Below are positions 1,855-62,608 of a stretch of DNA of 64,000 nt, piece by piece. How positions within the stretch are numbered: the stretch's first letter is position 1; every line of letters begins with the position of its first letter. This DNA comes from a virus, in the IMG/VR virus record IMGVR_UViG_3300027749_002876, positions 460,566-524,565 of that record. One strand, written 5' to 3'. The position numbers were made by a program, and so were the translations under genes. The notes under the pieces are model-generated. The model ran no database searches. It worked only from the letters and a program-made list of their open reading frames with translations, and was not told the origin of the DNA.

Positions 1855-1857
1855 ATT

Positions 1858-2130
1858 TTACACCAAGTCAACTTGGACTTGTTTACCACGGATTGTATGA
1901 CCTAGGCCTGTAGGAACTTCCTCATTTTTACGTTTTGCTTCATAACGCAAATAAGACAATTTAATTAGTGCATCCCAGCAAGTAGCACGGGCGTTTACCG
2001 TAGCAAACATTTCCGTCATTTGCTGGACCGTCATATACATACCGATATCGTTTTCGGATCCGTCACCCTTGAAAATTACACGGAATTTTTGTGAGTTATT
2101 AAATCCGTCAATGATAGTTTTTGTACGCAT
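1858..2130 (-). CDS. Hypothetical protein, 90 aa
   Basis: Unrecognised, basic at the C-terminus. The leader has AAAGGACTAGAAAATG and the promoter at 2162-2190. One of several single-gene units in this strip. Confidence 0.6.
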   Translation of the reverse strand: MRTKTIIDGFNNSQKFRVIFKGDGSENDIGMYMTVQQMTEMFATVNARATCWDALIKLSYLRYEAKRKNEEVPTGLGHTIRGKQVQVDLV

Positions 2131-2146
2131 TTTCTAGTCCTTTTCT

Positions 2147-2368
2147 TTATTGTCTAGATTCTATTGTAACAGAAACACCATTTATTGTCAAGTTTTGGTC
2201 AAGTTTAAAGTCCTCAAAATCTATCTCATTTTCCACATCGGAGATAACATTGCTAAGGTTGATGGACATGTCAAAAGCCTCGTCCGCATCACCAAATATT
2301 TCCTCAATGAGATCCTGAGCCTCGTTGAGCAAACTCAACAATTCCTGGAGGTTTTCAAATTTAGTCAT
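2147..2368 (-). CDS. Hypothetical acidic protein, 73 aa
   Basis: Very acidic; residues 8-40 are Leu, Asp and Glu rich and probably helical. The last ~14 codons run straight through the promoter of the next gene: TTGACA, the spacer and the -10 are read as Leu-Thr-Ile-Asn-Gly and onward. The C-terminal tail is therefore encoded by promoter DNA. Function unknown. Confidence 0.55.
   Translation of the reverse strand: MTKFENLQELLSLLNEAQDLIEEIFGDADEAFDMSINLSNVISDVENEIDFEDFKLDQNLTINGVSVTIESRQ
2162..2190 (-). promoter_or_regulatory. Sigma70-type promoter inside 3' end of preceding CDS
   Basis: -35 TTGACA (2185-2190), 17-base spacer, -10 TACAAT (2162-2167). Same family as 1826-1854, but the spacer differs after ATAAATGG. 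Confidence 0.8.
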
Positions 2369-2381
2369 TTAGTATTACCTT

Positions 2382-2603
2382 TTAGATATAGAATTCAGTA
2401 TCAAAATTCAAAGCGGTATAGACACATTCACGGACTTCTGTATCCATTGCTTCACCGAACAATTCATAGTCGCTGTCGGCCAAGTCACGCAAATTTTGAT
2501 AGACAACGGGCCAAGTGCTTTTCTGCATTTTGTGGAATTCAATAATATCGGCAATTTGTTTGTTACCGTTTTCGCTAAACATTCCGTATGATACTGTAGT
2601 CAT
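2382..2603 (-). CDS. Hypothetical protein, 73 aa
   Basis: Unrecognised. Begins MTTVSYGMFSENGNKQIADI, acidic overall. Preceded by AAAAGGACTTAGAAATG and the promoter at 2637-2665. Confidence 0.6.
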   Translation of the reverse strand: MTTVSYGMFSENGNKQIADIIEFHKMQKSTWPVVYQNLRDLADSDYELFGEAMDTEVRECVYTALNFDTEFYI

Positions 2604-2636
2604 TTCTAAGTCCTTTTCTTTACTGTCTAAGATTCT

Positions 2637-2665
2637 ATTATATACCCAAACCCATTTATTGTCAA
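2637..2665 (-). promoter_or_regulatory. Sigma70-type promoter, conserved repeat family
   Basis: -35 TTGACA (2660-2665), 17-base spacer, -10 TATAAT (2637-2642). Spacer and downstream bases match the other family copies. Confidence 0.9.
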
Positions 2666-2669
2666 ATTT

Positions 2670-2930
2670 TTACATTGACCAATAAGTCTCTGTTGCAGGA
2701 TTACAACAGTGTGGGGTGTCGGCATCAATTTCTATTTCCTTACCGGACATGAGATTTTTAACTGTTTTCTTGGGGAAAACGAATCCAGGGTTAAGAACCT
2801 TGAAAGCTTCCAAAGTCTTAGCAGTTTGTGCTAACGGGTTAGTTTCAATGAATTTAATCATTGACAGAAAAGTCATACCCAAAAATTCTGCGTCTTTTTG
2901 AATAACTTTGATTGCTGTAACTTGTTTCAT
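2670..2930 (-). CDS. Hypothetical protein, 86 aa
   Basis: Unrecognised. A helical N-terminal half is followed by a tail with adjacent cysteines (PHCCNPATET) near residue 75. It has its own promoter at 2962-2990. Confidence 0.6.
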   Translation of the reverse strand: MKQVTAIKVIQKDAEFLGMTFLSMIKFIETNPLAQTAKTLEAFKVLNPGFVFPKKTVKNLMSGKEIEIDADTPHCCNPATETYWSM

Positions 2931-2961
2931 TTGTGTCCTTTAGTTGACTGTCTAAGATTCT

Positions 2962-2990
2962 ATTATATACCCAAAACCATTTATTGTCAA
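2962..2990 (-). promoter_or_regulatory. Sigma70-type promoter, conserved repeat family
   Basis: -35 TTGACA (2985-2990), 17-base spacer, -10 TATAAT (2962-2967). Confidence 0.9.
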
Positions 2991-2994
2991 CCTT

Positions 2995-3285
2995 TTATCG
3001 TTTGTCGCAATACTCAAAAAGTATCCATTTTGCACGATTGAGGGCTTGACGGGCATCTTCGGCTCGCATATAGTCAATTTCACCATATTCGGTGTTAATC
3101 ATCTCTTGGGCATCACTCATCAAACTAGCGGCCATCATTGCAGGACCCGAATGACGAAAAGTAATACTTTGTTCTACAGCCTCACGCATTTGGGCTTCTG
3201 TGCAACCATACATGCGGATCTCACGTTTTTCTTGCATATCACGGTTAACAGCATTGACGATAGAAGAACGAAAATCAACTGTCAT
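2995..3285 (-). CDS. Hypothetical protein, 96 aa
   Basis: Unrecognised, mostly helical by composition (many Ala, Glu, Arg, Met). Start at 3285 after AAAGGAGTTTTTATG. It is driven by the promoter at 3318-3346, just downstream of the clpP terminator. Confidence 0.6.
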   Translation of the reverse strand: MTVDFRSSIVNAVNRDMQEKREIRMYGCTEAQMREAVEQSITFRHSGPAMMAASLMSDAQEMINTEYGEIDYMRAEDARQALNRAKWILFEYCDKR

Positions 3286-3317
3286 AAAAACTCCTTTAAT
3301 TAACTTACTAAGACTCT

Positions 3318-3346
3318 ATTATATACCCAAAACTATTTATTGTCAA
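3318..3346 (-). promoter_or_regulatory. Sigma70-type promoter, conserved repeat family
   Basis: -35 TTGACA (3341-3346), 17-base spacer, -10 TATAAT (3318-3323). It lies between the clpP terminator and the 96-aa gene. Confidence 0.9.
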
Positions 3347-3359
3347 ATTTTGGTAACCG

Positions 3360-3383
3360 TAAAAAAGCCCCGTTTCCAGGGCA
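3360..3383 (-). terminator. Rho-independent terminator after clpP
   Basis: On the minus strand the RNA reads GCCC, a loop, GGGGC and then six Ts, starting 15 bases past the clpP stop. It separates the clpP unit from the accessory strip. Confidence 0.8.
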
Positions 3384-3397
3384 AAACGTAATATTTT

Positions 3398-3985
3398 TTA
3401 TTCTCGTTTTTCGATAATTTTATCAATCAATCCATAGTCTAATGCTTGTTTGGCTGACATAAAGTTATCACGTTCCATATCAAGTGTAAGTTGTTCAAAC
3501 GTTTTACCTGCACTGTTATGTTTGACATATATTTCAGTAAGGTTCTTTTTCATTGCTAGAATTTCTTCTACTTGAATCAACATATCAGTTGCCTGACCAC
3601 GTGCGCCACCACTAGGTTGATGAATCATATGTCGTGCATTTGGCAACATAAAACGTTTGTCTTTGGCACCTGCTGTTGCCAATAGACTGCCCATACTACA
3701 AGCCTGACCCATAACGATTGTTTGCACATCAGGTTTGATGAATTGCATACAATCATAGATGGCCATACCAGCAGTTACGCTACCACCTGGACTATTGATA
3801 TACATTGAGATATCTTTCTCACCCTCTGATTCTAAAAATAATAGCTGGGCAACGATTAGATTTGCCATTTGGTCGTGTACTTCACCTTCAAGCAAAATAA
3901 CACGGTCACGCAATAGACGGCTGTAGATATCGTAACTACGCTCGCCTTTAGCGGTTTGTTCAATAACGATTGGGACTAGACTCAT
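3398..3985 (-). CDS. clpP: ATP-dependent Clp protease proteolytic subunit ClpP
   Basis: 195 aa, close to the length of mature bacterial ClpP. The serine-protease triad is visible as Ser97 in GQACSMGS, His122 in HMIHQPSGG and Asp173 in MERDNFMSA. Conserved strands [17 protein letters not shown] (62-78) and the LDYGLID tail (182-188) are present. ClpP forms a tetradecameric chamber fed by an AAA+ unfoldase, and the matching ClpX is encoded at 11542-12744. It has its own strong promoter (4014-4042) and a terminator, so it is a monocistronic unit. No propeptide is apparent. Confidence 0.97.
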
Positions 3986-36454: not shown

Positions 36455-36697
36455 CTATCTCCATCGTAACATAAAATGAATATAATCTTTCTCATCTGTG
36501 AATTTGAACGTAGTTTCAAATCCATCATCTTGTGTATCTTTATATTCATACGTCCACCTAGATTTTGTTCTACCAGGACCAAAAGTATCAACACACCAAT
36601 CTAATGGATTATTTTTATCTCTTATAGAACCGTCTGGTCCCATATAGTGTTTCCAATAATCCCAAGATAATAAAGCAATGTGTTGATATTTTTTCAT
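36455..36697 (-). CDS. Hypothetical protein, 80 aa
   Basis: Start set at ATG 36697, overlapping the queE stop (ATGA). Trp/Tyr rich (LLSWDYWKHYMGPDGSIRDK). Possibly related in style to the next gene; unrecognised. Confidence 0.55.
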   Translation of the reverse strand: MKKYQHIALLSWDYWKHYMGPDGSIRDKNNPLDWCVDTFGPGRTKSRWTYEYKDTQDDGFETTFKFTDEKDYIHFMLRWR

Positions 36698-37542
36698 GTG
36701 CCCCACTCGTTTTTGAAAAGAGGTACTTGAAGTCTATCACTGTACCGATAACCACGATTCATTGCTTCAATAGCAACATTCTTAGCATTTAAGTTATACA
36801 ATGATTCTACACCACCGCAAGGCATGAAGTATACAGGGCCTCTGAATCCACCATTACGAAATTCTAGTACAGCTTTGTCTGCTTCAATTGCATCTTCACT
36901 AGTAGCAATAACAAACTTAAGATACACAAAGCCAATACTTTCATATTGACGAATGATGTTAGGACAAATTGCTTCACTCCACTTCTCGCCACTGATACTT
37001 AGTTTAGGACTAACACTAAATGTTAATGCATTCTTTTCTCTGTTAATCTTCCATTGTTGTAGATAGATTGATAGGTCTTGACTTAGTTCTTGTGTACCAT
37101 TAGTTTCAAAAGTAATCTCTTTGAGACCTCTCATTTTTTCGTTTGAAAGTAATTCTGGATATGCTCTTTGCCATCCAAGAAGAGGTTCACCACCAGTGAT
37201 AACAAGGTGCTCATCCATCCAGCGACCGTGAGGAAGGATAGTAAGAATAGAGTCAACAATAGAAACGGTACTGAGCATAGGACTAAGATGCTTAAATCTA
37301 GAGTCCCACGAGGCGTAGGAATCGCAACCTGTACTGACAAGCGGTAAGGATTTATAATCTGTATAATCTTGTGCTTTAATCGCAATAACATCTCTTTCAC
37401 TACTCAATTCTCCTTTATTCATGCCGAAGCCACCACACGTAAAATTGCATCCATATGTTCTAAGGAAAATACTTGGTACTCCGATATATCGGCCTTCTCC
37501 TTGTATACTATAAAAAAGTTCACTTACTTTTATGCTTGTCAT
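36694..37542 (-). CDS. queE: 7-carboxy-7-deazaguanine synthase QueE
   Basis: 282 aa radical-SAM enzyme making CDG from 6-carboxytetrahydropterin. SELFYSIQGEGRYIGVPSIF (7-26) is the typical start, and VITGGEPLLGW (~123) binds SAM. The cluster cysteines are unusual: Cys32-x3-Cys36 is followed by GGFG, with no CxxC, and the next Cys is 73 in STGCDSYASWD. The start region overlaps the 3' end of the HNH gene by 23 bases, and a second copy of its first 17 codons lies beyond that gene (38131-38184). Confidence 0.88.
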   Translation of the reverse strand: MTSIKVSELFYSIQGEGRYIGVPSIFLRTYGCNFTCGGFGMNKGELSSERDVIAIKAQDYTDYKSLPLVSTGCDSYASWDSRFKHLSPMLSTVSIVDSILTILPHGRWMDEHLVITGGEPLLGWQRAYPELLSNEKMRGLKEITFETNGTQELSQDLSIYLQQWKINREKNALTFSVSPKLSISGEKWSEAICPNIIRQYESIGFVYLKFVIATSEDAIEADKAVLEFRNGGFRGPVYFMPCGGVESLYNLNAKNVAIEAMNRGYRYSDRLQVPLFKNEWGT

Positions 37543-38083
37543 TAATATGTTCTTTCAAATCATTCATTGATATATAGAGTTTTTCACAAATGAAGCCCTC
37601 TTTCTTTCGTTTACTATCGGATAAGCACCATCCCCTAATAGTTGTCTCATGTACATCGTAATATTTAGCCGCATGCCCCATTGAAGGGAATATACCATCA
37701 GGCGTAGTCACCATCATTTTCCAATTAGGTCTATCATTGTGAATTATACGTTCAATTGAATCTAAAACTGCAGGTACCTTATAGTCTCTTTTTAAGTATT
37801 CTACTGCATTTAACAGATTTTGTAAATCATCTTGGAACTTCCCGAGAGCCATATTACAGTTGGTGCAAAGTAAACCTCTTACTTTTTTTGTAACATGACA
37901 ATGATCCACTGCTAAATCCCTATTACATATATCAAGTTTATTACAAATCGCACAGCCATGATTTTGTTCTACCAACATTGCTTCGTACTGGTCGGCATTA
38001 ATTCCAAAATCTTTCATCAAATCTGACCTTTTTCGGCGTTTGTTAGTTCGTTCTTTACTATTGAGTGTTTTTTGCTTAATCAT
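37520..38083 (-). CDS. HNH endonuclease (Endonuclease VII-like) inserted in queE
   Basis: 187 aa. Basic N-terminus, then CAICNKLDICNRDLAVDHCH (~44-63) and RGLLCTNCNMALGKFQDD (~69-86). This is a zinc-stabilised HNH of the recombination endonuclease VII type. The C-terminal ~60 residues (HAAKYYDVHETTIRGWCLSD) look like a DNA-binding NUMOD/helix-turn-helix. It sits between a 17-codon fragment and the full copy of queE, has its own late octamer and AAGGAG, and ends inside queE. A free-standing homing endonuclease is likely. Confidence 0.85.
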   Translation of the reverse strand: MIKQKTLNSKERTNKRRKRSDLMKDFGINADQYEAMLVEQNHGCAICNKLDICNRDLAVDHCHVTKKVRGLLCTNCNMALGKFQDDLQNLLNAVEYLKRDYKVPAVLDSIERIIHNDRPNWKMMVTTPDGIFPSMGHAAKYYDVHETTIRGWCLSDSKRKKEGFICEKLYISMNDLKEHINDKHKSK

Positions 38084-38100
38084 TATTATCTCCTTATATG

Positions 38101-38108
38101 TATTTATA
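38101..38108 (-). promoter_or_regulatory. Late promoter octamer TATAAATA of the HNH gene
   Basis: The minus strand reads TATAAATACATATAAGGAG, then ATAATAATG. Full T4 consensus octamer with a Shine-Dalgarno sequence in a short leader. Confidence 0.65.
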
Positions 38109-38130
38109 CAAGGTGACGGTAGAGTAAGAT

Positions 38131-38184
38131 TTAACCCTCTCCTTGGATGCTATAAAATAATTCTGATACTTTTAAATGATTCAT
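38131..38184 (-). pseudogene. queE: Severed 5' end of queE (17 codons)
   Basis: Encodes MNHLKVSELFYSIQGEG and then TAA. Residues 4-17 are identical in protein to residues 4-17 of the intact QueE, with different codons. The ATG overlaps the stop of the 72-aa gene (ATGA), as expected for the original queE start. The insertion point is right after QGEG. Confidence 0.85.
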
Positions 38185-38399
38185 TTGATTTTTAAATTGT
38201 AATTTTTTAAAATAACTTCAGCGTATGTACCGCCACCTTGTTTATAAACACCATTAACTTGCTTTGCACAATCCCTGATTAATAGTTCAGCAAACTTTTC
38301 AATACTTTCTTCATCATCAGTTTGACCTGCGACAGATGCTCGTTTGAGCGCCCAGTCAAAACCTGCTTCTTTTGCCAGGTCTTCTATTTTTTTATTCAT
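38181..38399 (-). CDS. KFAELIV-family small protein, 72 aa
   Basis: Contains IEKFAELLIRDCAKQVNGVY and AEVILKNYNLKIK. Fifth member of the paralogue family. Originally coupled to queE; the coupling is now broken by the HNH insertion. Confidence 0.65.
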   Translation of the reverse strand: MNKKIEDLAKEAGFDWALKRASVAGQTDDEESIEKFAELLIRDCAKQVNGVYKQGGGTYAEVILKNYNLKIK

Positions 38400-38594: not shown

Positions 38595-39010
38595 TAAGCT
38601 ACCTCGTCTTTATTGTTGTTAGGATATTTTGCACTAGTATATCTAATAACTAATACGCTTATTGCGATAACAAATGTAGAGCCGGCTACAGCTAACATTT
38701 CAATAACATTGATTGGCTGATGACTCATTATATCTACCATATGCCGTGTCAGTGCTGTTATTGCAATGTATAGCAGGAACCTGACAGGCATATGATTGGT
38801 CTTGAAATAAATGCCCACCATTGCACCTATTTCCAAATAGATAAACATTAATAACAAGTCACCGACTGTTGCGTGATGTTTTTGAAACATTTCAGCGAAG
38901 GTCCAACCGGCAGCCCATACTGTTGCGGCACCGATACCAAACAATGCAAGCCTATGAAATATGTCTACTAAGGTATGTCCTACCTTATCTACCATTTCTG
39001 TTTTCAACAT
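38594..39010 (-). CDS. psiE: PsiE-like membrane protein
   Basis: 138 aa with four predicted membrane spans. LLLMFIYLEIGAMVGIYFKT (~52-71) and HMPVRFLLYIAITALTRHMV (~73-92) match the phosphate-starvation-inducible PsiE family. The family function is poorly known. Its presence suggests adaptation to phosphate-limited hosts, which is inference. Confidence 0.8.
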   Translation of the reverse strand: MLKTEMVDKVGHTLVDIFHRLALFGIGAATVWAAGWTFAEMFQKHHATVGDLLLMFIYLEIGAMVGIYFKTNHMPVRFLLYIAITALTRHMVDIMSHQPINVIEMLAVAGSTFVIAISVLVIRYTSAKYPNNNKDEVA

Positions 39011-39492
39011 TATTCAAACTCTCTATCTTCACGATGACCGCCACGTCCTGCCATGTTGCTATCAGTCTCACGTACCTCTACTCTACAGCACCATACACGT
39101 TTAGCTTCTTCGCTACCACAGTTGGGTAAGAAGATTGTGTTGATGTATTCATATAAAAAGTCAGCAATACCTTCACAACCAGTGCGTTCTACTTCTGTGA
39201 TCTTTGCTAGTTTCAATCTACCTAGTTCTAATAGATGTTCACGCATTGGGTCATCTTGTGCGACTAATAATGTATGGTCAAACCATTCTTCTAGTTTATC
39301 TTTGAGTGGGCGTAGTCCACCAAAATCAGTTACCCAGTTACGGGCATCCAATGTATCAGCTTCAAACTCAAAGTGAAAACTCATAGCATAGCCATGAATT
39401 AAATTACAATGACTGTCAGCACGCCATTGACGATATGCGACAGGACCTATTTGTCTGTATGTCTTTGTTGAAAAGAATTTTTTGTTTGCCAT
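39010..39492 (-). CDS. queD: 6-carboxy-tetrahydropterin synthase QueD
   Basis: 160 aa, T-fold. SHCNLIHGYAMSFHFEFE (~27-44) holds the Cys and a zinc-site His; the usual HGH is HGY here. FDHTLLV (~71) and VEVRETDSNMA (~138-148) complete the active site. Converts 7,8-dihydroneopterin triphosphate to carboxytetrahydropterin, feeding QueE. Driven by the promoter at 39510-39538. Next to psiE and the queE cluster. Confidence 0.88.
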   Translation of the reverse strand: MANKKFFSTKTYRQIGPVAYRQWRADSHCNLIHGYAMSFHFEFEADTLDARNWVTDFGGLRPLKDKLEEWFDHTLLVAQDDPMREHLLELGRLKLAKITEVERTGCEGIADFLYEYINTIFLPNCGSEEAKRVWCCRVEVRETDSNMAGRGGHREDREFE

Positions 39493-39509
39493 GTTTTCTC
39501 CTATGTTGT

Positions 39510-39538
39510 ATTATAGCATAGGCGGCAGAGTTTGTAAA
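39510..39538 (-). promoter_or_regulatory. Sigma70-type promoter of queD
   Basis: -35 TTTACA (39533-39538), 17-base spacer, -10 TATAAT (39510-39515); AGGAG before the ATG. Confidence 0.75.
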
Positions 39539-40272
39539 GCGGGAGTGACGCCAAGACCGCTACTTTTATTTAACAAAAAACCCATAACCTCTTCTTTATT
39601 AAGAATTAAATTAAATGGATCAGTTTTAATAGATTTTTCTCCTAAATATTTGAATTTTGTATTGTAGATTTTTTCCATGTCTGAATAGATAGATTCATAT
39701 TTTACTTTTTTATATTCAATATTGTGTAATATTATAGACAAATTCTTTTCCCATAATAGGTGACTATTATAAATTTCAGTTAATCCATTATTCAGACGAT
39801 TAATATCAATTGTTGCAGGTTCATTGATTTCACTATTGATTCCAAATACGTTTTTTAGGTTGTTAGCATATGAGCGGGCAATCATAAAACTTAACAATTG
39901 TTCTTTAATATCTCTTGTCAATGTGATAAATTCAAAACCTATATTTTTTAACTCTATTATTATTTTAGATAATGTTTCCTTATCATAATGATCCATCAAA
40001 AAAATTCTTACAGTTAATGATTGGTTTATATTTGTATTTTTTAATAAATTAAGTCGTTCTTCAAATCCTTCAAATATTTTAAAGTTTGAAGGAATGCTAG
40101 CAAAATTCTTTAATCTTATATTATTGTCATCATCAGTCACATATTCACTGCGATTCCAATTTTCAAAATACTCGCCCAATTGAAAGCTTGATTTTATTTC
40201 TCCGGATAATTTTTCACACAATTGACTACCTGTTCTGGGTAAACAAATAATACATGTTCTGTTGCCGTTCAT
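39511..40272 (-). CDS. Sulfotransferase-like P-loop protein
   Basis: 253 aa. CIICLPRTGSQLCEKLSGEI (7-26) resembles the PAPS-binding P-loop (PRTGS) of sulfotransferases, and FITLTRDIKEQLLSFMIARS (~115-134) resembles the 3'-phosphate loop. The middle is AT-rich, Asn/Ile/Lys-heavy sequence unlike its neighbours. The stop lies in the queD promoter. The substrate is unknown and the assignment tentative. Confidence 0.5.
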   Translation of the reverse strand: MNGNRTCIICLPRTGSQLCEKLSGEIKSSFQLGEYFENWNRSEYVTDDDNNIRLKNFASIPSNFKIFEGFEERLNLLKNTNINQSLTVRIFLMDHYDKETLSKIIIELKNIGFEFITLTRDIKEQLLSFMIARSYANNLKNVFGINSEINEPATIDINRLNNGLTEIYNSHLLWEKNLSIILHNIEYKKVKYESIYSDMEKIYNTKFKYLGEKSIKTDPFNLILNKEEVMGFLLNKSSGLGVTPALQTLPPML

Positions 40273-41063
40273 TTTAATCCTAAATTTTTCCTAATTTTAG
40301 TTGCACTGATATTATGTGTAGCATCATCAAATATTTCTTGCTCAATCTTATAACCAACATCACGACCGTATGTAATATTCACAATGTTTGGTACAATTTG
40401 AATTTCGTATTGACCTTGATATAACATATCTAAGTCACGTTTAATAAAACTTTTAACTTGTTCGATGGCAAATGGATTACTTCCTTGCCAACCTTGACAG
40501 TCACGTATTTGTATAACTACTTGCCCAGTCTTAGCAATAGCCCGTTCAAACAACTTACGATGTCCTTCATGCCATGGTTGCCAACGACCTAGCATCTGTA
40601 CTGTTTCTTTCTGCCAATCAAACACTGGTCTGCGTCTATTATCTAATATGTGTGCGGCAATAAACTCACCCCACTTTTCACCTTTTTGTTCAGTAATTCT
40701 AAAGTCATATACTTCTGGTGGGATAAATGCTTTGTTAGTATCGTCAAATCTACCTTTATCAATAGTATCAACCCATACAGTCCAATCTGCTTTAAAGTTA
40801 TTACGCATTTCAACTAATGGTGCAACAAAGTCACATATAACATAATCACATTCAATCATATTATCTGCTAGTTCACGCATACGTAAACTTTGACGAACAC
40901 GACCTTCTGTGCTAAAGTCCCAATCGTTATACTTTTTTCGTACATCGTCAGCATTTAGCCAACCTACTTTTTTCTTATCCGCTTGTAGGTGCTCTACAAT
41001 ATGTTGTGCTATATAAGTTTTACCTGCGCCAGGCAGGCCCATTACTAATATTCTTTTAGGCAT
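40269..41063 (-). CDS. Fusion: adenylylsulfate-kinase-like domain + nucleotidyltransferase
   Basis: 264 aa. N-terminal kinase with Walker A GLPGAGKT (9-16), GWLNADDVRKKYNDWDFS (~34-51) and CDFVAPL, like CysC-type kinases. C-terminal cytidylyl/adenylyltransferase fold with GRWQPWHEGHRKLF (HxGH, ~168-181) and ISATKIRK (~254). It could activate a phosphorylated small molecule. Lies among sugar-nucleotide genes and overlaps both neighbours. Confidence 0.8.
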   Translation of the reverse strand: MPKRILVMGLPGAGKTYIAQHIVEHLQADKKKVGWLNADDVRKKYNDWDFSTEGRVRQSLRMRELADNMIECDYVICDFVAPLVEMRNNFKADWTVWVDTIDKGRFDDTNKAFIPPEVYDFRITEQKGEKWGEFIAAHILDNRRRPVFDWQKETVQMLGRWQPWHEGHRKLFERAIAKTGQVVIQIRDCQGWQGSNPFAIEQVKSFIKRDLDMLYQGQYEIQIVPNIVNITYGRDVGYKIEQEIFDDATHNISATKIRKNLGLK

Positions 41064-41523
41064 TTTTGTTTTTCTCCGCTTCTGCTACACGTTTGCGTAG
41101 ACTTGAACTGCTAAAACTATGGTCACGTTTGTTAAATATAACCTGTACACCACGGCCTGCACCCTCATTACGTCCGGTAAAATTCTTATCCTCATACTCT
41201 GTACCCAAAATACGAACATCTAACGGTAGAATCAATAACAAGTCAATTAAGTCTTGTTCAGTTTGATATACCACTACTTCATCAACATAGCGACAAGCCG
41301 CAAGTTGAATCTGTCGTTCTACAATACTTTGAATAGGTTTATTCTTAGTATCAGGTCTATCAATGGTTGGATCGGTTTGTAGCCCACAAATCAAGTAATC
41401 ACAATGATTTTTTGCTTCACTTAACATAGCAACGTGACCTGCATGAAGCATATCAAATGTGCTAAAAGTAATACCAATCTTTTTACCCTGTGCTTTTAAT
41501 TCTTTAATATGATTGAAAATCAT
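41056..41523 (-). CDS. Cytidylyltransferase-like nucleotidyltransferase
   Basis: 155 aa from ATG 41523, which overlaps the upstream stop (ATGA); an in-frame GTG at 41541 is an alternative. GITFSTFDMLHAGHVAML carries the HxGH site and RILGTEYEDKNFTGR the partner loop; the end SFSSSSLRKRV is the ISSTxxR-type motif. Resembles glycerol-3-phosphate cytidylyltransferase. Confidence 0.82.
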   Translation of the reverse strand: MIFNHIKELKAQGKKIGITFSTFDMLHAGHVAMLSEAKNHCDYLICGLQTDPTIDRPDTKNKPIQSIVERQIQLAACRYVDEVVVYQTEQDLIDLLLILPLDVRILGTEYEDKNFTGRNEGAGRGVQVIFNKRDHSFSSSSLRKRVAEAEKNKNA

Positions 41524-41756
41524 TTTGAAAGTGTTCTCCACATTTTAGTTTGTTCATGTTCTTTTAAGAATTCATCCTCACCCGTAAATGTAGGTGCATC
41601 ATTCATAATCTCATCCAATAACCATTTCAATTTATGTAAATCTTTTTTGATTTCAAATGTAGTAAATCCATCGTTATACGGACTGTGAAGTTCTACACCT
41701 GCAATGTAGATTTGATGATGTACACTATTATAATCCATTGGTTTTTTAAATCCCAT
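41520..41756 (-). CDS. Hypothetical protein, 78 aa
   Basis: Start at ATG 41756, sharing a base with the folE stop (TAATG). Contains IYIAGVELHSPYNDGFTTFE and a helical C-terminus. Unrecognised. Confidence 0.6.
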   Translation of the reverse strand: MGFKKPMDYNSVHHQIYIAGVELHSPYNDGFTTFEIKKDLHKLKWLLDEIMNDAPTFTGEDEFLKEHEQTKMWRTLSK

Positions 41757-42436
41757 TATTTGCAACCTTTATTTGCAATCTGCAAAAACTCTTGTCTTGC
41801 GGCTGGATCTGTTTTGAATCCACCACCTAGACGGCAGGTAGTTGTACTTGAACCAGTATCTTCTACACCTCGGGCCGCAACACAATAATGCCTGGCATCA
41901 ATCATTACAGCTACATCTTCTGTTTCTAGTATATAACATAGTGAATGAAAAATTTGTTCAGTTAATCGTTCTTGTATTTGCGGGCGCTTACTGAAATATT
42001 CTACTATACGGTTGATTTTACTAAGGCCTAGTACCTTATCCTTTGGTACATAAGCAACGGTAGCCAAACCCGCAATAGTAATAAAATGATGTTCACATGA
42101 ACTTTGTACATTGACATTGCGTTCAACAACCATTTCATTATATTTCATTTTATTTTCTACAGTAGTACATTTTGGAAATGCTTCATAATCTAGTCCGTAG
42201 AAAATTTCATTTACATACATCTTAGCAACACGCTTGGGTGTCTCAATTAGACTATCATCAGATAAATCTAAACCAAGATATTGCATAATAATAGTGAAGT
42301 GTTCTTCAATACGATCAATCTTATCTTTTCTGTCTAAGTTGTTTGGCAATGTAGGAGTCTCAACTCCCATTTTGACTAAGTGCTGATGCACTTGTTGACC
42401 CAACTCTGGATCTGTTTTTGTTTTATTATAACTCAT
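41756..42436 (-). CDS. folE: GTP cyclohydrolase I FolE
   Basis: 226 aa from the ATG at 42436, which follows AAAGGAAGGTTATCTATG; longer readings begin at a GTG inside an inverted repeat. [12 protein letters not shown] (~111-122) binds zinc, and [20 protein letters not shown] and ERLTEQI are the family core. It converts GTP to dihydroneopterin triphosphate, the first step toward 7-deazaguanines, feeding QueD (39010) and QueE (36694). Confidence 0.95.
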
Positions 42437-42473
42437 AGATAACCTTCCTTTGTGATGGTTTTGTTTTGATATT

Positions 42474-42504
42474 GTGTTACCATTGTGTAACACAAGTATT
42501 TATC
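42474..42504 (-). promoter_or_regulatory. folE leader: late octamer and perfect inverted repeat
   Basis: GATAAATA at 42497-42504 (minus strand) is followed by GTGTTAC (42487-42493), 6 bases, GTAACAC (42474-42480). The 7-bp repeat could be an operator or an mRNA hairpin ~40 bases before the start codon. Confidence 0.5.
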
Positions 42505-42715
42505 ACTTTGTTTTAGCAACTGATTTTTTTGATTTAGCCTTAACTGCAGGCTTCATATTAGCTAATTCTACACTAGCACAAGCTTCACGCACCTCATTAA
42601 CTAATGCGTCCCAATCCCATTTTAATTCAGTACGACCATCAGGAAAAGTAGTCACAGTTAAGTGACTACCTTTAACTACTGTTGGTTCTGCAAGTTGAAT
42701 TTTCTTGCGAGCCAT
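42503..42715 (-). CDS. Small basic-tailed protein, 70 aa
   Basis: MARKKIQLAEPTVVKGSHLT, a short amphipathic helix (WDALVNEVREACAS), then a Lys/Ala/Ser tail (KAKSKKSVAKTK). Unrecognised; possibly nucleic-acid-associated. Confidence 0.6.
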   Translation of the reverse strand: MARKKIQLAEPTVVKGSHLTVTTFPDGRTELKWDWDALVNEVREACASVELANMKPAVKAKSKKSVAKTK

Positions 42716-42717
42716 GG

Positions 42718-42912
42718 TTAAGCCTTAGCTTTTGCTTCTGCTCTTGCGGCTTTTTCTGCTGTAATTTCATTACGGCGAGCCTTAACTGCTTTAGCTAGTT
42801 CTGCTAATGCTTTACGTGCCCTAGTACCGGCGGCTGCATTACCCTTGTTAAATTTATCGTTCTCAGCATTGTATGCTTCTAAACTATTTTCAATATCATT
42901 TTGTGCGCTCAT
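42718..42912 (-). CDS. Helical Ala/Lys/Arg-rich small protein, 64 aa
   Basis: Start at 42912 (MSAQNDIENSLEAYNAENDK) after AAGGAGAAAATTATG. ARKALAELAKAVKARRNEIT and a KAARAEAKAKA end give a histone-like basic helix. Unrecognised; a DNA-binding role is inferred from composition. Confidence 0.6.
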   Translation of the reverse strand: MSAQNDIENSLEAYNAENDKFNKGNAAAGTRARKALAELAKAVKARRNEITAEKAARAEAKAKA

Positions 42913-42922
42913 AATTTTCTCC

Positions 42923-44122
42923 TTAATATTTTGCTTCACGGGTGTGTTTGCGATAATCACTATCCATACGCAACCATTGTTGTCCGTTACCTTCTAGGAT
43001 ATCACAAATTCTATCGATTGTACTGTCAGTCCAATCACTAATCTTTCCTTGATTTACATGCGGTTGATGTAACATATTATATAACTTAATTGTTGCATCT
43101 TCAACACTCCAGGGCGTATACAGTCTTGTATAGTCATTCGCAAATGTTTCTGGGAAACTGCGATATGCCGGATACAATACATTGCAACCCAAACTATCTG
43201 CTTCACTGACTGTGTTACTCACCCAGTCTTGTAATGCACAATTAAACAATACTCTTGTATCATTTAATAACTCATAGTATGCGTTCTTATCTAGGTCTTG
43301 ATATACTTTTAATAGTCCACGATTTTGCATATCTTGTGTACGTTTCATGTAACTATCGTTATTGCTTTTTAGTTTACTACCGCTGAACACACAGAATTCT
43401 ACACCACGATATACACCATGACGATCCTTCTCACCGTACCGGTTATAGAATTCTTCAATCACATCCATGTAGAAGTCAGGTTGCTTTTCTTGATCCCATC
43501 TAGCACTAAATGCAATACGCATTGTACGTTCATTGAATGGCTTGATGACATTATTTACACGGCTACGAACTTCTTCTTTGCCAAATGCTAAGCCTGAGAT
43601 ATTGTAGATCGGTGCCTTCCAACCCGCAATCTTCATATGCATTACCATTTCTTCATTACTAGCAAGTACACCATCAACGAATGAATCAACCATCTTTTCA
43701 TAGTGACCCATGAACTCACTCATGCCCCATACATGTACGAAATCATCCGGATCGATTGACTGAGCAAGACAACGGACAAATATACGAGGACGGAGATTAA
43801 TAGGAACTTGCTTAAGTATATAAGGAAGACTTTCAATGCCCGGCTGAAACATATCTTCAAAGTATACAATATCTTCATAACTACACTCACCTTTTTTCAT
43901 CATCTTTACTAGATTCATTAATTGACTCATACCAAAGTATGTACGTCCATGAGCATCTAATACTTGTCCGGTAACAATAGCTTGGTCATCACTTAATGTT
44001 TCGCCGGGAACGATAACATAGTTAATGCCTCTACGTTTGAATACACGTTCATTCCAGTCTTGTAACTGTAGTGTGTATCTTGCTTTGTAAGGCTCTAGGC
44101 CCATATAAAATAACTTATGCAT
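42923..44122 (-). CDS. Glycosyltransferase-like protein (GT4-type), 399 aa
   Basis: Two Rossmann-like halves: MRIAFSARWDQEKQPDFYMD (~220-239) and a C-terminal site DWVSNTVSEADSLGCNVLYP (~306-325) as in GT-B enzymes. The order (nucleotidyltransferase-cupin, then glycosyltransferase) suggests a surface or DNA sugar pathway. Overlaps the upstream gene by 8 bases. Confidence 0.75.
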   Translation of the reverse strand: MHKLFYMGLEPYKARYTLQLQDWNERVFKRRGINYVIVPGETLSDDQAIVTGQVLDAHGRTYFGMSQLMNLVKMMKKGECSYEDIVYFEDMFQPGIESLPYILKQVPINLRPRIFVRCLAQSIDPDDFVHVWGMSEFMGHYEKMVDSFVDGVLASNEEMVMHMKIAGWKAPIYNISGLAFGKEEVRSRVNNVIKPFNERTMRIAFSARWDQEKQPDFYMDVIEEFYNRYGEKDRHGVYRGVEFCVFSGSKLKSNNDSYMKRTQDMQNRGLLKVYQDLDKNAYYELLNDTRVLFNCALQDWVSNTVSEADSLGCNVLYPAYRSFPETFANDYTRLYTPWSVEDATIKLYNMLHQPHVNQGKISDWTDSTIDRICDILEGNGQQWLRMDSDYRKHTREAKY

Positions 44123-44873
44123 TTTCTCTTTCTATATCTAGTTCATCACATTCTTCACCATACTGTATTTCTACAATACGACATGGTGTATCATATGGAT
44201 TACTTAGTTGATGCCAATCACCTTGTGAAATTTTTACTTGACCAAACGTTGACAATTCAATTGGAAGTAAACTGTAACCACTTGACAATTTTGTATATAG
44301 TATACACTTACCTTCTGTAACATGCCAAAATTCACTTCGTTTAAAATGCCGTTGCATACTTAAACTTTGACCCGGCTCTACTGTTAGTTCTTTTACTTTA
44401 CATCCACTTACATCATGTAGTATACGATAGTATCCCCACTGACGCAATGTTTTAGGTTGTTTCCATTCACGTAGTATCCAACTACTACTGTTCTTTTTGT
44501 CATCCCCACCCACACCAAATACAAATTCTACATCATCAAATATCATTTCGGGAATGTTATCTTTAGTTCTATCTCCCCCATTAGCAAATATAATATTTGT
44601 TTTTGGGTACATTTCTTTGACTTTGCGAATGGCATCAATGGCGGTATCATCACTATCATCAAACTCTATTACTTTATGCACTTGATGTAAATTTTCAATG
44701 ATTATTTTACGTTCTTGAATAGGCATAAAAGGTTGACCTTTTTTACGGGTCAACCATGCGTCACTATTAACTCCTACTATCAGTAAGAAACCTAAATGCT
44801 TAGCGGAATTGAAATATTCAATATGGCCACTATGCAAGGGGTCAAAGCCCCCAGTGACTAACACTATCTTCAT
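44115..44873 (-). CDS. Fusion: RfaE-type nucleotidyltransferase + cupin
   Basis: 252 aa from ATG 44873 (MKIVLVTGGFDPLHSGHIEY); an upstream in-frame start is less likely because the 68-aa gene's stop overlaps here. HSGH is the nucleotide-binding motif, and IFANGGDRTKDN the family loop. The C-terminal ~90 residues (VKELTVEPGQSLSMQRHFKR, then FWHVTEGKC) form a cupin as in type II mannose-phosphate isomerases. Probably makes an activated sugar. Confidence 0.82.
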   Translation of the reverse strand: MKIVLVTGGFDPLHSGHIEYFNSAKHLGFLLIVGVNSDAWLTRKKGQPFMPIQERKIIIENLHQVHKVIEFDDSDDTAIDAIRKVKEMYPKTNIIFANGGDRTKDNIPEMIFDDVEFVFGVGGDDKKNSSSWILREWKQPKTLRQWGYYRILHDVSGCKVKELTVEPGQSLSMQRHFKRSEFWHVTEGKCILYTKLSSGYSLLPIELSTFGQVKISQGDWHQLSNPYDTPCRIVEIQYGEECDELDIERENA

Positions 44874-45076
44874 GGACGCATATCCTCTTGCCATTGATCC
44901 TTAGCCCATTTGCCGGCAATTTGTTTTTGATGTTGACGGTATGCGAAACTCCGCATGTCATACAATGATGTTTCATCAAACTTGTACCCAAAGTCCTGAC
45001 AGAATTCAAGGTACTTTTCAAGATCCTCAAAAATCTGATTGATACGTGGGTTAGGTTGATATTGTTGTTTTGCCAT
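44870..45076 (-). CDS. Hypothetical protein, 68 aa
   Basis: MAKQQYQPNPRINQIFEDLE, helical and polar. Start after AAAGGAATTAAAAATG; ATGA overlap downstream. Unrecognised. Confidence 0.6.
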   Translation of the reverse strand: MAKQQYQPNPRINQIFEDLEKYLEFCQDFGYKFDETSLYDMRSFAYRQHQKQIAGKWAKDQWQEDMRP

Positions 45077-45087
45077 TTTTAATTCCT

Positions 45088-45543
45088 TTAAATAGCGAGT
45101 TGTTGATAAGGTTTGTTTGTGTTATAGACAATAGTAGCCCCGTTCTCATTATCTTCTGATACTTGAATAGCAATATTACGATCTGGATATCGAGTTGCAA
45201 TGACTTCATAGAGGTCATCACTAATCATTTCACAACTTTTGTAATCCAACGCAAGAATGCCTTGAGAATATTGATTCTCTAACCATCTTTTAAACTGAAT
45301 AAACTCAATATCACGGTCGTTGTGAAATACTTCAATAGACACTTCAAAGTGAAAGATGTGTCTATGTGGAGTAGCTAAAAAGCTAACATCATACTCATCA
45401 CCTGTTGCCAAGTTAGGGTCTGTTGCCGCCGCTGGGTATTTATGAATACCTTCTTTTTGAAAACGCACAAAAATTGTACGTAATGCATGTTGTTTGATAC
45501 GTACACGTTTCTCGGTCAATGCCTGTATATGTTGTTCTTGCAT
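45088..45543 (-). CDS. QueD-like T-fold protein
   Basis: 151 aa. FLATPHRHIFHFEVSIEVFH (~55-74) resembles the zinc-site strand of QueD/PTPS, followed by FIQFKRWLEN as in DFGDLK-type helices. The C-terminal IAIQVSEDNENGATIVY resembles V-x-E-T. Directly upstream is the DpdA-like gene, one base away, so a role in deazaguanine DNA modification is likely. The Cys of true QueD is not evident. Confidence 0.6.
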   Translation of the reverse strand: MQEQHIQALTEKRVRIKQHALRTIFVRFQKEGIHKYPAAATDPNLATGDEYDVSFLATPHRHIFHFEVSIEVFHNDRDIEFIQFKRWLENQYSQGILALDYKSCEMISDDLYEVIATRYPDRNIAIQVSEDNENGATIVYNTNKPYQQLAI

Positions 45544-45544
45544 A

Positions 45545-47098
45545 TTATTCTCCTAGTACTTTTGAAATTTCATCATCACTATCTTCAATAGCTTCTTCAA
45601 CTTCCGGTTCACTATCAGTTACGTCAAACAATTGGTCAAACATTGTCATAGCATTCATTGCTTTCTTGCCACTTAAACCCTGACTACCTGACTTCATCTG
45701 CATCCAGAAGCTACTATGTGATTCTATCATATCTAGGCTCTTTTGTCTATCTTTTTGTGCAAATATCTTATCAACAATTTCACCAAAATGCTCATCATCA
45801 AACTTGCTCATAACCATTTTAGGCATGATGCCCTTATCATACTGGCGATTAGCTTCTTGTACAGCAGTCATATGCATATAAACATTATGACTCTGTAGTA
45901 ATGTATAACTCAATGTATCCCAACTTGTTTTAGTTTCTTTACCATGTTGACCAATAAAGCCTTGACCACGATAACAAAGGTCCTTCATCAACATAAGGTC
46001 CGTTACTGGACTATCTGTAAACTTGTCATGGATATTATCTTGTAGTACAGCATCACTATACTTACGATTATCATTAGCATAACTTTTCTTCTCGGCAGTC
46101 TTTTCCATACTGTATGCCCACTTCTTATCGTGTTCAATACTATTGTTAAAGTATGCTAGACCTTTAGCCGCACTAAAGAATGGACTTGCACAGTCAAATG
46201 TAATCTGTAGTTTAGGGTTGTGATACTTACGAATAGCTTTTTGAATGTCACTGAACAATACAGCATATTCCATAATGCTTACACCCAAGCAATGAATCAA
46301 ATCATGTTTACCCTCTACCAGTAAACCATCATGTATGATATCAACTAATCTACGCAACATCAAATGAACATCAATCTTGTTCTGTCCACCGAATGCCCAA
46401 CCATTAAAGTGATTATCTGGATAGACATTTGGATCACAATACTTCTTCATTTCTTCATACCAATCGTCTGATTGTTTATGATTGCGACCCTGCAATACAT
46501 TTAAGAACTTACATTTACCATTACGGTTCTTAATGAAGTATTCGTTATTGATGTGAGTAGCAGTAATAGCTTCTTCAATCGTACTGATACCATGTGCTGA
46601 CTTACCAGTCTTTGGGTCTTTGATATTGAATGTAGTAAGACTTTGTGATGGGATATCTAAACACATACCATAGTCCATGTATGTGTCCATCCAGTTCAAT
46701 ACAGCTTTACGTTTAATCATAGCACGTGGGCAGTTAGGATCTTTCCAGTCTGCTGGCCACTGACATTTAAGAATCTGAAAACCACCACTATCACCTAACA
46801 TGAACGTACCCTCTTCACGTTCTCTAATAATACTTTCACTAGGATCGTCTTTAGTAGTATCTAAGTTAGCATGACCAGCACTGTATAAGCCCCACTTATA
46901 ATAGTATAGGCCTTCTTTACTGTTTAAGAAGTTAAGTTTTTCAACATCACCATTAAAGCCGGCCGGGATACGTGCTTTAGGGAAGTAATCTTCACCTTTG
47001 CGTTGTTTACCTAAGCCAGCAATATAGAAACTACTGACTGCAGGTAAGAACAATGCCCAATCGGGCTTGTGCTGTGCTGATAGATTAACTTGTTCCAT
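45545..47098 (-). CDS. dpdA: DpdA-like tRNA-guanine transglycosylase family protein
   Basis: 517 aa. LGDSGGFQIL (101-110) carries the catalytic Asp and the GGFQ base-binding loop of transglycosylases. FLNVLQGRN (198-206) corresponds to the QG loop, and FNGWAFGGQN (231-240) to the GGLAVGE loop. FDCASPFF may give the nucleophile region. Phage DpdA enzymes swap guanine in DNA for a 7-deazaguanine. The acidic C-terminal ~40 residues are extra. With FolE, QueD and QueE in the window, DNA modification is the best reading. Confidence 0.82.
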   Translation of the reverse strand: MEQVNLSAQHKPDWALFLPAVSSFYIAGLGKQRKGEDYFPKARIPAGFNGDVEKLNFLNSKEGLYYYKWGLYSAGHANLDTTKDDPSESIIREREEGTFMLGDSGGFQILKCQWPADWKDPNCPRAMIKRKAVLNWMDTYMDYGMCLDIPSQSLTTFNIKDPKTGKSAHGISTIEEAITATHINNEYFIKNRNGKCKFLNVLQGRNHKQSDDWYEEMKKYCDPNVYPDNHFNGWAFGGQNKIDVHLMLRRLVDIIHDGLLVEGKHDLIHCLGVSIMEYAVLFSDIQKAIRKYHNPKLQITFDCASPFFSAAKGLAYFNNSIEHDKKWAYSMEKTAEKKSYANDNRKYSDAVLQDNIHDKFTDSPVTDLMLMKDLCYRGQGFIGQHGKETKTSWDTLSYTLLQSHNVYMHMTAVQEANRQYDKGIMPKMVMSKFDDEHFGEIVDKIFAQKDRQKSLDMIESHSSFWMQMKSGSQGLSGKKAMNAMTMFDQLFDVTDSEPEVEEAIEDSDDEISKVLGE

Positions 47099-62011: not shown

Positions 62012-62608
62012 TTGACTATTTATTCAACTTCGGACCATCGTAAGATTTACGAAACACACATTGGTCCAATTCCAAAAGACATAGAAGGTCGTAGTTATGA
62101 AATTCATCATATTGACGGAAATCACAATAACAATGAATTGTCAAATTTATTGTGTGTTTCTATTAGAGAACACTATGAAATACATAAATCTCAGGGAGAC
62201 CTTAAGGCTTGTTTAATTATGTCTCAAAGAATGGGTGTTTCCCCTGAAGAAAAATCACACCTAGCAAAATTATCAAATACAGGAAAAAATAATCCAATGT
62301 ATGGTACTATTTGGATTAACGACGGAATTATTAATAAGAAAATTCGCGGAGATATACCCGAAGGCTGGGCACGAGGCAGATTAATATCACACGAACACGC
62401 TTCAAAATTTACAAAACGATCCAAAGTTGGTACTAATAACACTAGATTTAATAAGACAATTTATTGTTTTGAGAATATTAAAACACTAGAACAAATTCAT
62501 AGTACATCATATGAGTTTGCTATTAAGTATGGAGTTAGCACTGTTGGAATAAGAGGTCTCATTCAAAAAAACAAGACCTCTTATAAGGGTTGGCGAATGG
62601 TTTTTTGA
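62012..62608 (+). CDS. HNH homing endonuclease
   Basis: 198 aa from a TTG start at 62012, supported by AAAAAGGAGCAATCAGC just before it. YEIHHIDGNHNNNELSNLLC (~28-47) and HYEIH form the HNH core. NTGKNNPMYGTIWIND (~89-104) is a NUMOD3-like DNA-binding repeat. The end (ENIKTLEQIHSTSYEFAIKY) resembles an intron-encoded-nuclease helix-turn-helix. Plus-strand island in minus-strand genes. Unlike the queE case I see no split gene around it. Confidence 0.88.
   Translation: MTIYSTSDHRKIYETHIGPIPKDIEGRSYEIHHIDGNHNNNELSNLLCVSIREHYEIHKSQGDLKACLIMSQRMGVSPEEKSHLAKLSNTGKNNPMYGTIWINDGIINKKIRGDIPEGWARGRLISHEHASKFTKRSKVGTNNTRFNKTIYCFENIKTLEQIHSTSYEFAIKYGVSTVGIRGLIQKNKTSYKGWRMVF

Follow-up and report, generated by a model that had tools for sequence, protein, structure and literature searches.

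A homing nuclease ordinarily relies on an intron, an intein or a safe gap close by so that the gene that it cuts is not harmed. The EndoVII/DHHRN homing family is defined by its D, H, H, R and N residues together with zinc cysteines, and it includes F-CphI of cyanophage S-PM2, which cuts psbA (PMC6083498). There are also free-standing homing endonuclease genes (HEGs) in T4-like phages, such as SegF, SegG and MobE, and the mobE gene of Aeh1 in nrdA (PMC2988022). Homing is classically marked by short donor tracts that flank the inserted endonuclease gene, both for T4 td and for free-standing HEGs, and T4 I-TevI is associated with a late promoter, a ribosome-site hairpin and a target-like operator (PMC2988022). 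In fungal mitochondria, mobile endonuclease ORFs (mORFs) are found at atp6 of Allomyces and at atp6, atp9, cox2 and nad3 of Glomus (PMC3630166). Lastly, the engineered HomeR drive uses a re-coded terminal target segment of 22-27 amino acids to rescue the gene that it cuts (PMC7968924).

The window analysed here is a stretch of 64,000 nucleotides with which the 524,565-base record of a giant bacterial virus ends. Its minus strand carries, in this order, a 72-amino-acid gene of unknown function (38181 to 38399), a 17-codon ORF (38131 to 38184), an HNH gene for 187 amino acids (37520 to 38083) and an intact queE for 282 amino acids (36694 to 37542). The queE product matches phrog_2076 (E=1.6e-51 over residues 3-281) and is predicted to be a 7-carboxy-7-deazaguanine synthase-like radical SAM protein. 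As the initial annotation had noticed, the ATG of the short ORF at 38184 overlaps the TGA of the 72-amino-acid gene (38399 to 38181), and the ORF repeats the QueE N-terminus in other codons. It encodes MNHLKVSELFYSIQGEG followed by a stop codon, and the intact QueE begins with MTSIKVSELFYSIQGEG, such that the two 51-nucleotide starts are identical at only 36 positions and encode nearly identical protein. The same annotation correctly described 23 bases that are read in two frames (37542 to 37520), wherein the HNH gene ends with NDKHKSK and a stop codon while queE begins with MTSIKVSE. An identical arrangement is present in two contigs from other metagenomes (L002 and L003), and thus it is not an assembly artefact.

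Several other features of the window are worth recording. A set of 7-deazaguanine genes, comprising a GTP cyclohydrolase, a QueD-like protein, QueE and a tRNA-guanine-transglycosylase-like protein, is located on the minus strand at 39010-47098, where all names except QueE come from reading the sequence; this set suggests that the phage DNA is modified. A second putative homing endonuclease, HNH/NUMOD-like and likewise named only from its letters, lies on the plus strand at 62012-62608. Neither a group I intron nor a tRNA association of the element was found in the window. Within the 72-amino-acid gene, the minus-strand sequence TAAACAAGGTGGCGGT (38229-38244, the KQGGGT codons) resembles the queE target, with three mismatches to it. 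This resemblance is probably due to chance, but it could mark a secondary site.

We consider it highly probable that the locus contains a mobile homing element composed of a regulatory leader, an EndoVII-type HNH gene and a recoded queE 5' end fused to that gene by overlap. An empty site, the identity of the stump, a mosaic breakpoint, recurrence and purifying selection on the nuclease have been observed, while cutting, self-resistance by recoding and regulation by the leader are inferred. The nuclease would most likely cut an HNH-free queE at its SIQGEG codons (about codons 15-17), and repair from the donor phage would copy in both the nuclease gene and the donor queE start. Recombination would stop a few dozen bases further inside the resident queE. 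The first 15-17 codons of the resident would stay upstream as a dead stump, and the imported start would read directly into the resident body, leaving queE functional.

The empty site was sought in a scan of IMG/VR, which yielded 60 queE loci. There are many HNH-free relatives (L007-L009, L013-L016, L018 and L057) in which an uninterrupted queE sits directly behind the same upstream gene and begins at an ATG of the 38184 type, which is the outcome that the initial annotation had proposed as a check. These resident genes begin with ATG-A(G/A)T-CATTTAAAAGTATCAGA, and the 72-amino-acid gene plus the stump (326 nucleotides) aligns without a break with the uninterrupted loci L014-L016 at 84% identity. 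The stump is identical to the HNH-free residents at 45-48 of 51 nucleotides. The intact queE start matches those residents at only 34-37 of 51 positions and the HNH-linked alleles L029 and L048 at 47-49 of 51. Since the matches are split in this way between two allele groups, it is the stump that represents the resident start, and the working one has been imported.

The same division is evident along the body of queE, where the window resembles HNH-linked alleles up to about nucleotide 75-90 and HNH-free alleles beyond. Of the sites that separate the two groups, 16 of 17 to the left of the break are donor-type in the window, and 37 of 39 to the right are resident-type. The imported, recoded 5' end therefore occupies at least 73 nucleotides (37470 to 37542, minus strand), and its right edge is placed between queE nucleotides 73 and 89 (37454 to 37470; MaxChi 43.0, permutation p<=5e-5). 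Similar mosaics with other queE bodies are found in L029 (p=0.001) and L048 (p=0.0008). The origin of the working 5' end in another queE allele, which had first been suggested from synonymous differences in this one locus, is borne out by the mosaic in the window and by its replication in these two loci. The short donor tract is thus one of co-conversion, the signature of homing. With a polymorphic presence or absence at a fixed site and co-converted flanks (in the window, L029 and L048), the locus has the defining trait of a homing element. The exact donor of the imported queE start was not found.

GGA serves as codon 15 of the working gene in 14 of 16 HNH-positive queE alleles, as against 17 of 106 HNH-free ones (Fisher test, 2.7e-8), although this test ignores the shared ancestry of the loci. 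The pattern fits a model wherein recoding shields the carried start from its own nuclease, which is inferred in the absence of cleavage data. However, the stumps of the window and of L069 also carry GGA at codon 15. Thus, GGA alone cannot determine resistance, and other positions must matter. There are also three HNH-free loci (L033, L038 and L050) that have recoded codons 11-25 in common with HNH-positive alleles; at queE nucleotides 30-90 they carry the recoded segment, but they do not share the first 30 nucleotides. It is possible that these are resistant alleles or remnants of lost elements.

The HNH protein matches Endonuclease_7 (PF02945, E=6.6e-22), and residues D60, H61, H63, R69, N77, C44, C47, C73 and C76 are invariant in alignments of five and six relatives. 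The residue criterion for the EndoVII/DHHRN family, namely the catalytic D, H, H, R and N plus two zinc CxxC pairs, is therefore satisfied. Comparison of the window with L029, L048 and L065 gives a dN/dS of 0.07-0.09, which indicates that the HNH gene is kept as a protein. Judged by its residues and its genomic behaviour, the element is a predicted EndoVII-type homing element, with cutting remaining an inference. Cleavage of queE near QGEG is deduced from the junctions and from the stump ends at codons 15-17; there are no cleavage data. An AlphaFold model of the protein (pLDDT 48) is too poor for a fold search or for locating a DNA-binding part. No relatives were confirmed in bacterial genome contigs.

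There are 16 distinct loci in which such an HNH gene accompanies queE. Profile searches yielded further full-length relatives that are about 59-89% identical (L029, L048, L065, L066, L068-L072 and L078-L082), and there are more distant ones as well (L083-L085). Every one of these relatives is located directly 5' of queE, and the full-length ones found in IMG/VR all overlap the queE start. Further upstream, the beginning of queE occurs a second time, as defined by the pattern ELFYSIQG with at most two mismatches, in 8 of the 16 distinct HNH-positive loci and in none of 100 HNH-free loci, and hence the second start is not a chance occurrence. The remaining eight HNH-positive loci lack a stump recognisable by this search, which may have been eroded or deleted, or the arrangement may have been reached differently.

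In every readable stump the break falls within codons 15-17, and the stump sequences vary in such a way that each fits its local queE. The stumps of L029 (MSHLKVSELFYSIQGEV), L069 (MAVIKVSELFYSIQGEK, one of the stumps in L068-071), L078 (MSKIKVAELFYSIQGVS), L080 (MSKLKISELFYSIQGVY) and L081/82 (MSKIKIAELFYSIQGVH) all end in a stop codon, and that of L072 begins with MSKIKIAELFYSIQGVIF. The L029 stump is 2.2 kb upstream, with a longer segment in between. The stump is eroded in L048 and L079, and it is absent in L065, L066 and L083. In L228, only a C-terminal HNH remnant precedes an intact queE with a recoded GGA start, which from its sequence appears to be the stage of decay that a homing gene is expected to reach. 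Two parts of the original interpretation of the window need adjustment in light of these loci. Interruption after codon 17 holds for the window but is not the sole position, given the range of breaks from codon 15 to codon 17. Likewise, the regenerated 5' end does double as the HNH 3' end, but it is not an ad hoc repair of one genome; instead, it is a heritable part of the mobile unit that is present in every full-length relative of the window HNH gene.

Some neighbouring sequences deserve separate mention. In L029, a cluster of small ORFs (1855-3423) lies between the stump and the HNH gene, and several of these are paralogous (MNERIK...LAEQ...FAELIV...EC). An ORF of this type also precedes the HNH gene in L065. 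In L005 (3724-4014; also in L004 and L006), there is a different, non-nuclease, zinc-ribbon-like ORF of 96 amino acids, whose own first five codons are those of queE (MSHLK) and which shares 14 nucleotides with a regenerated queE start. This ORF raises the possibility that start-replacing insertions have a hotspot at the beginning of queE.

A further refinement of the earlier reading is that the mobile unit has its own conserved leader (38084 to 38130, minus strand), which was recognised as the left end of the element in an alignment of 11 loci. A motif, TATAAATA (38108 to 38101), is common to most leaders and rare in the window, and there is no evidence that it acts as a promoter in the window phage. 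Most leaders can also form folds that bury the ribosome site. In the window, the predicted arms (38113-38106 and 38099-38092) are CCUUGUAU and AUAUAAGG (z = -2.6), with a Shine-Dalgarno sequence, AAGGAG, at 38095-38090, and the fold of L029 has z = -4.8. The pairing registers vary between loci. On the plus strand, the leader carries the queE target in antisense, as TATACAAGGTGACGGT (38105 to 38120), which has one mismatch to TATACAAGGTGAGGGT and overlaps the TATAAATA motif. At three or fewer mismatches, 0.53 matches are expected in 64 kb, and in 11 of 14 loci such copies have p values between 0.0005 and 0.0075. It is possible that this copy, which is statistically strong, serves as an operator. 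Because the antisense copy and the anti-Shine-Dalgarno arm are the same bases, the operator and the hairpin cannot be separated as causes, and either may be a by-product of the other. An RNA hairpin between stump and leader was also considered as a conserved structure and was rejected, with pairing z values from +0.9 to -4.7 across loci and no common occurrence.

Could the arrangement have arisen without homing? One possibility is a one-off accident, in which illegitimate recombination placed the HNH gene in the gap ahead of queE and the second start is a local duplication that has since diverged. This would suit two adjacent starts in the same orientation, as well as the few bases (GGT) that the window junction shares with related leaders. 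It is nevertheless very unlikely, given that the starts fit two allele groups (45-48 and 47-49 of 51) rather than divergence from each other, that the mosaic breakpoint is sharp, and that the layout is seen again at other genes and, with differing stumps, in many lineages. The uniform position of the stump breaks at codons 15-17 is not favoured by ordinary homologous recombination, and so it speaks against the proposal that the HNH gene and queE are old neighbours that spread together by this route, with a nuclease inert at queE and a stump that is merely a generic junction. Shuffling of the region 5' of queE among relatives, and the HNH-positive loci without a stump (L065, L066 and L083), leave some room for this proposal. 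We regard it as unlikely, however, in view of the absence of a stump from all 100 HNH-free loci and of a nuclease that is under purifying selection with its catalytic residues intact.

Two other explanations concern the short ORF itself. Its order relative to the HNH gene and queE resembles exon-intron-exon, as if it were the 5' exon of a queE gene split by a group I intron or an intein. There is practically no chance that this is correct: the stump is closed by a stop codon and followed by a new gene, the downstream queE has its own start and a complete N-terminus, and with no Rfam match in the window the criterion for a group I intron-encoded HEG is not met. Alternatively, the ORF might function as a leader peptide or uORF in the regulation of HNH-queE translation, as it is in frame, begins on the upstream stop codon and stops just before the HNH leader. 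Its length and end differ between loci, though, it is eroded or missing in the five loci named above (L048 and L079; L065, L066 and L083), and its sequence is not that of a conserved leader but tracks the resident queE at each locus, all of which makes such a role extremely unlikely. A homing element that carries a replacement queE start remains our preferred reading.

The same layout was sought at other target genes: for 137 distinct EndoVII-HNH loci that have a gene downstream, the sequence immediately 5' of the HNH gene was searched for a repeat of the downstream gene's start. Mismatched pairs served as background and score no more than 40 (694 pairs). Higher scores are found, apart from queE, for thyX in L129 (score 149), where the stump retains about 44 codons, and for three terL loci (L101, L238 and L089; scores 76-83). 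A pncB locus (L236, score 67) comes from the cultured Leptolyngbya phage Lbo-JY46. A C5-methylase gene in L288 (score 49) and a DNA polymerase gene in L265 (score 47) probably share the layout, on weaker grounds, and these two together with a gene of unknown function in L125 (score 42) are treated as candidates whose scores are modestly above background. In all of the non-queE loci above background, the working gene and the 3' end of the HNH gene overlap. Among seven cultured phages whose EndoVII genes were inspected for a stump, L236 is positive and the six others are negative, and thus the layout is common but not universal.

These observations support the earlier one-locus interpretation and extend it to a recurrent, multi-gene class. 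It is likely, though with less assurance than for queE, that there is a widespread class of phage EndoVII homing endonucleases, each of which carries the recoded 5' end of one target overlapping its own 3' end. At little expense, such elements would enter genes as essential as those for terminase, DNA polymerase and thymidylate synthase, along with queE, and would then decay to a recoded gene start. The model accounts for short truncated gene starts 5' of phage HNH genes and for mosaic gene 5' ends. Since the element recurs across many phages and target genes, resistance by recoding, the cycle of loss and decay, and co-conversion are open to study in nature, and the cultured cyanobacterial phage Lbo-JY46, with its pncB locus, offers a direct experimental route.

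Among openly licensed papers, we recognised no phage homing nuclease that carries a recoded 5' target end, which is weak evidence of novelty. F-CphI belongs to the same catalytic family and is like the window HNH in its CxxC, D-H-x-H, R and CxxC-N residues and in being phage-encoded, free-standing and directed at a metabolic gene. Its EndoVII domain is at the C-terminus, and the sections consulted describe no carried recoded 5' target end (PMC6083498), whereas the window element has one, and its nuclease has a C-terminal third after the domain that is common to the queE-linked relatives. T4-like HEGs have in common with the element intronless homing and flanking co-conversion, and their late promoter and ribosome-site hairpin resemble the TATAAATA motif and the predicted leader folds, but they cut away from their own gene or split their target, and a re-supplied recoded target end is not described for them (PMC2988022). 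The three features of the I-TevI leader have possible counterparts in the window leader; this is a parallel only, and regulation by the window leader is inferred.

The closest likeness in organisation is to the mORFs, wherein an endonuclease ORF also comes with a foreign, synonymously divergent target end, the native end persists as a relic and the gene becomes a hybrid. There, however, the 3' end (the C-terminus) is carried, by LAGLIDADG or GIY-YIG nucleases in mitochondria, in contrast to the 5' end carried by an EndoVII HNH nuclease in phages, and only in the window element does the nuclease stop codon overlap the new start codon. The queE element thus has the foreign terminal copy, the relic and the hybrid gene, and appears to work as a 5' mirror of an mORF, but it fails the mORF definition because the 3' end is not what it carries. 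In sparing its target by bringing a replacement start, the element would be a natural counterpart of the engineered home-and-rescue strategy. HomeR is synthetic, Cas9-based, used in Drosophila and directed at the 3' end, whereas the phage element is natural and acts at the 5' end; even so, the 22-27 amino acids re-coded in HomeR are close to the approximately 25 codons imported in the window queE.
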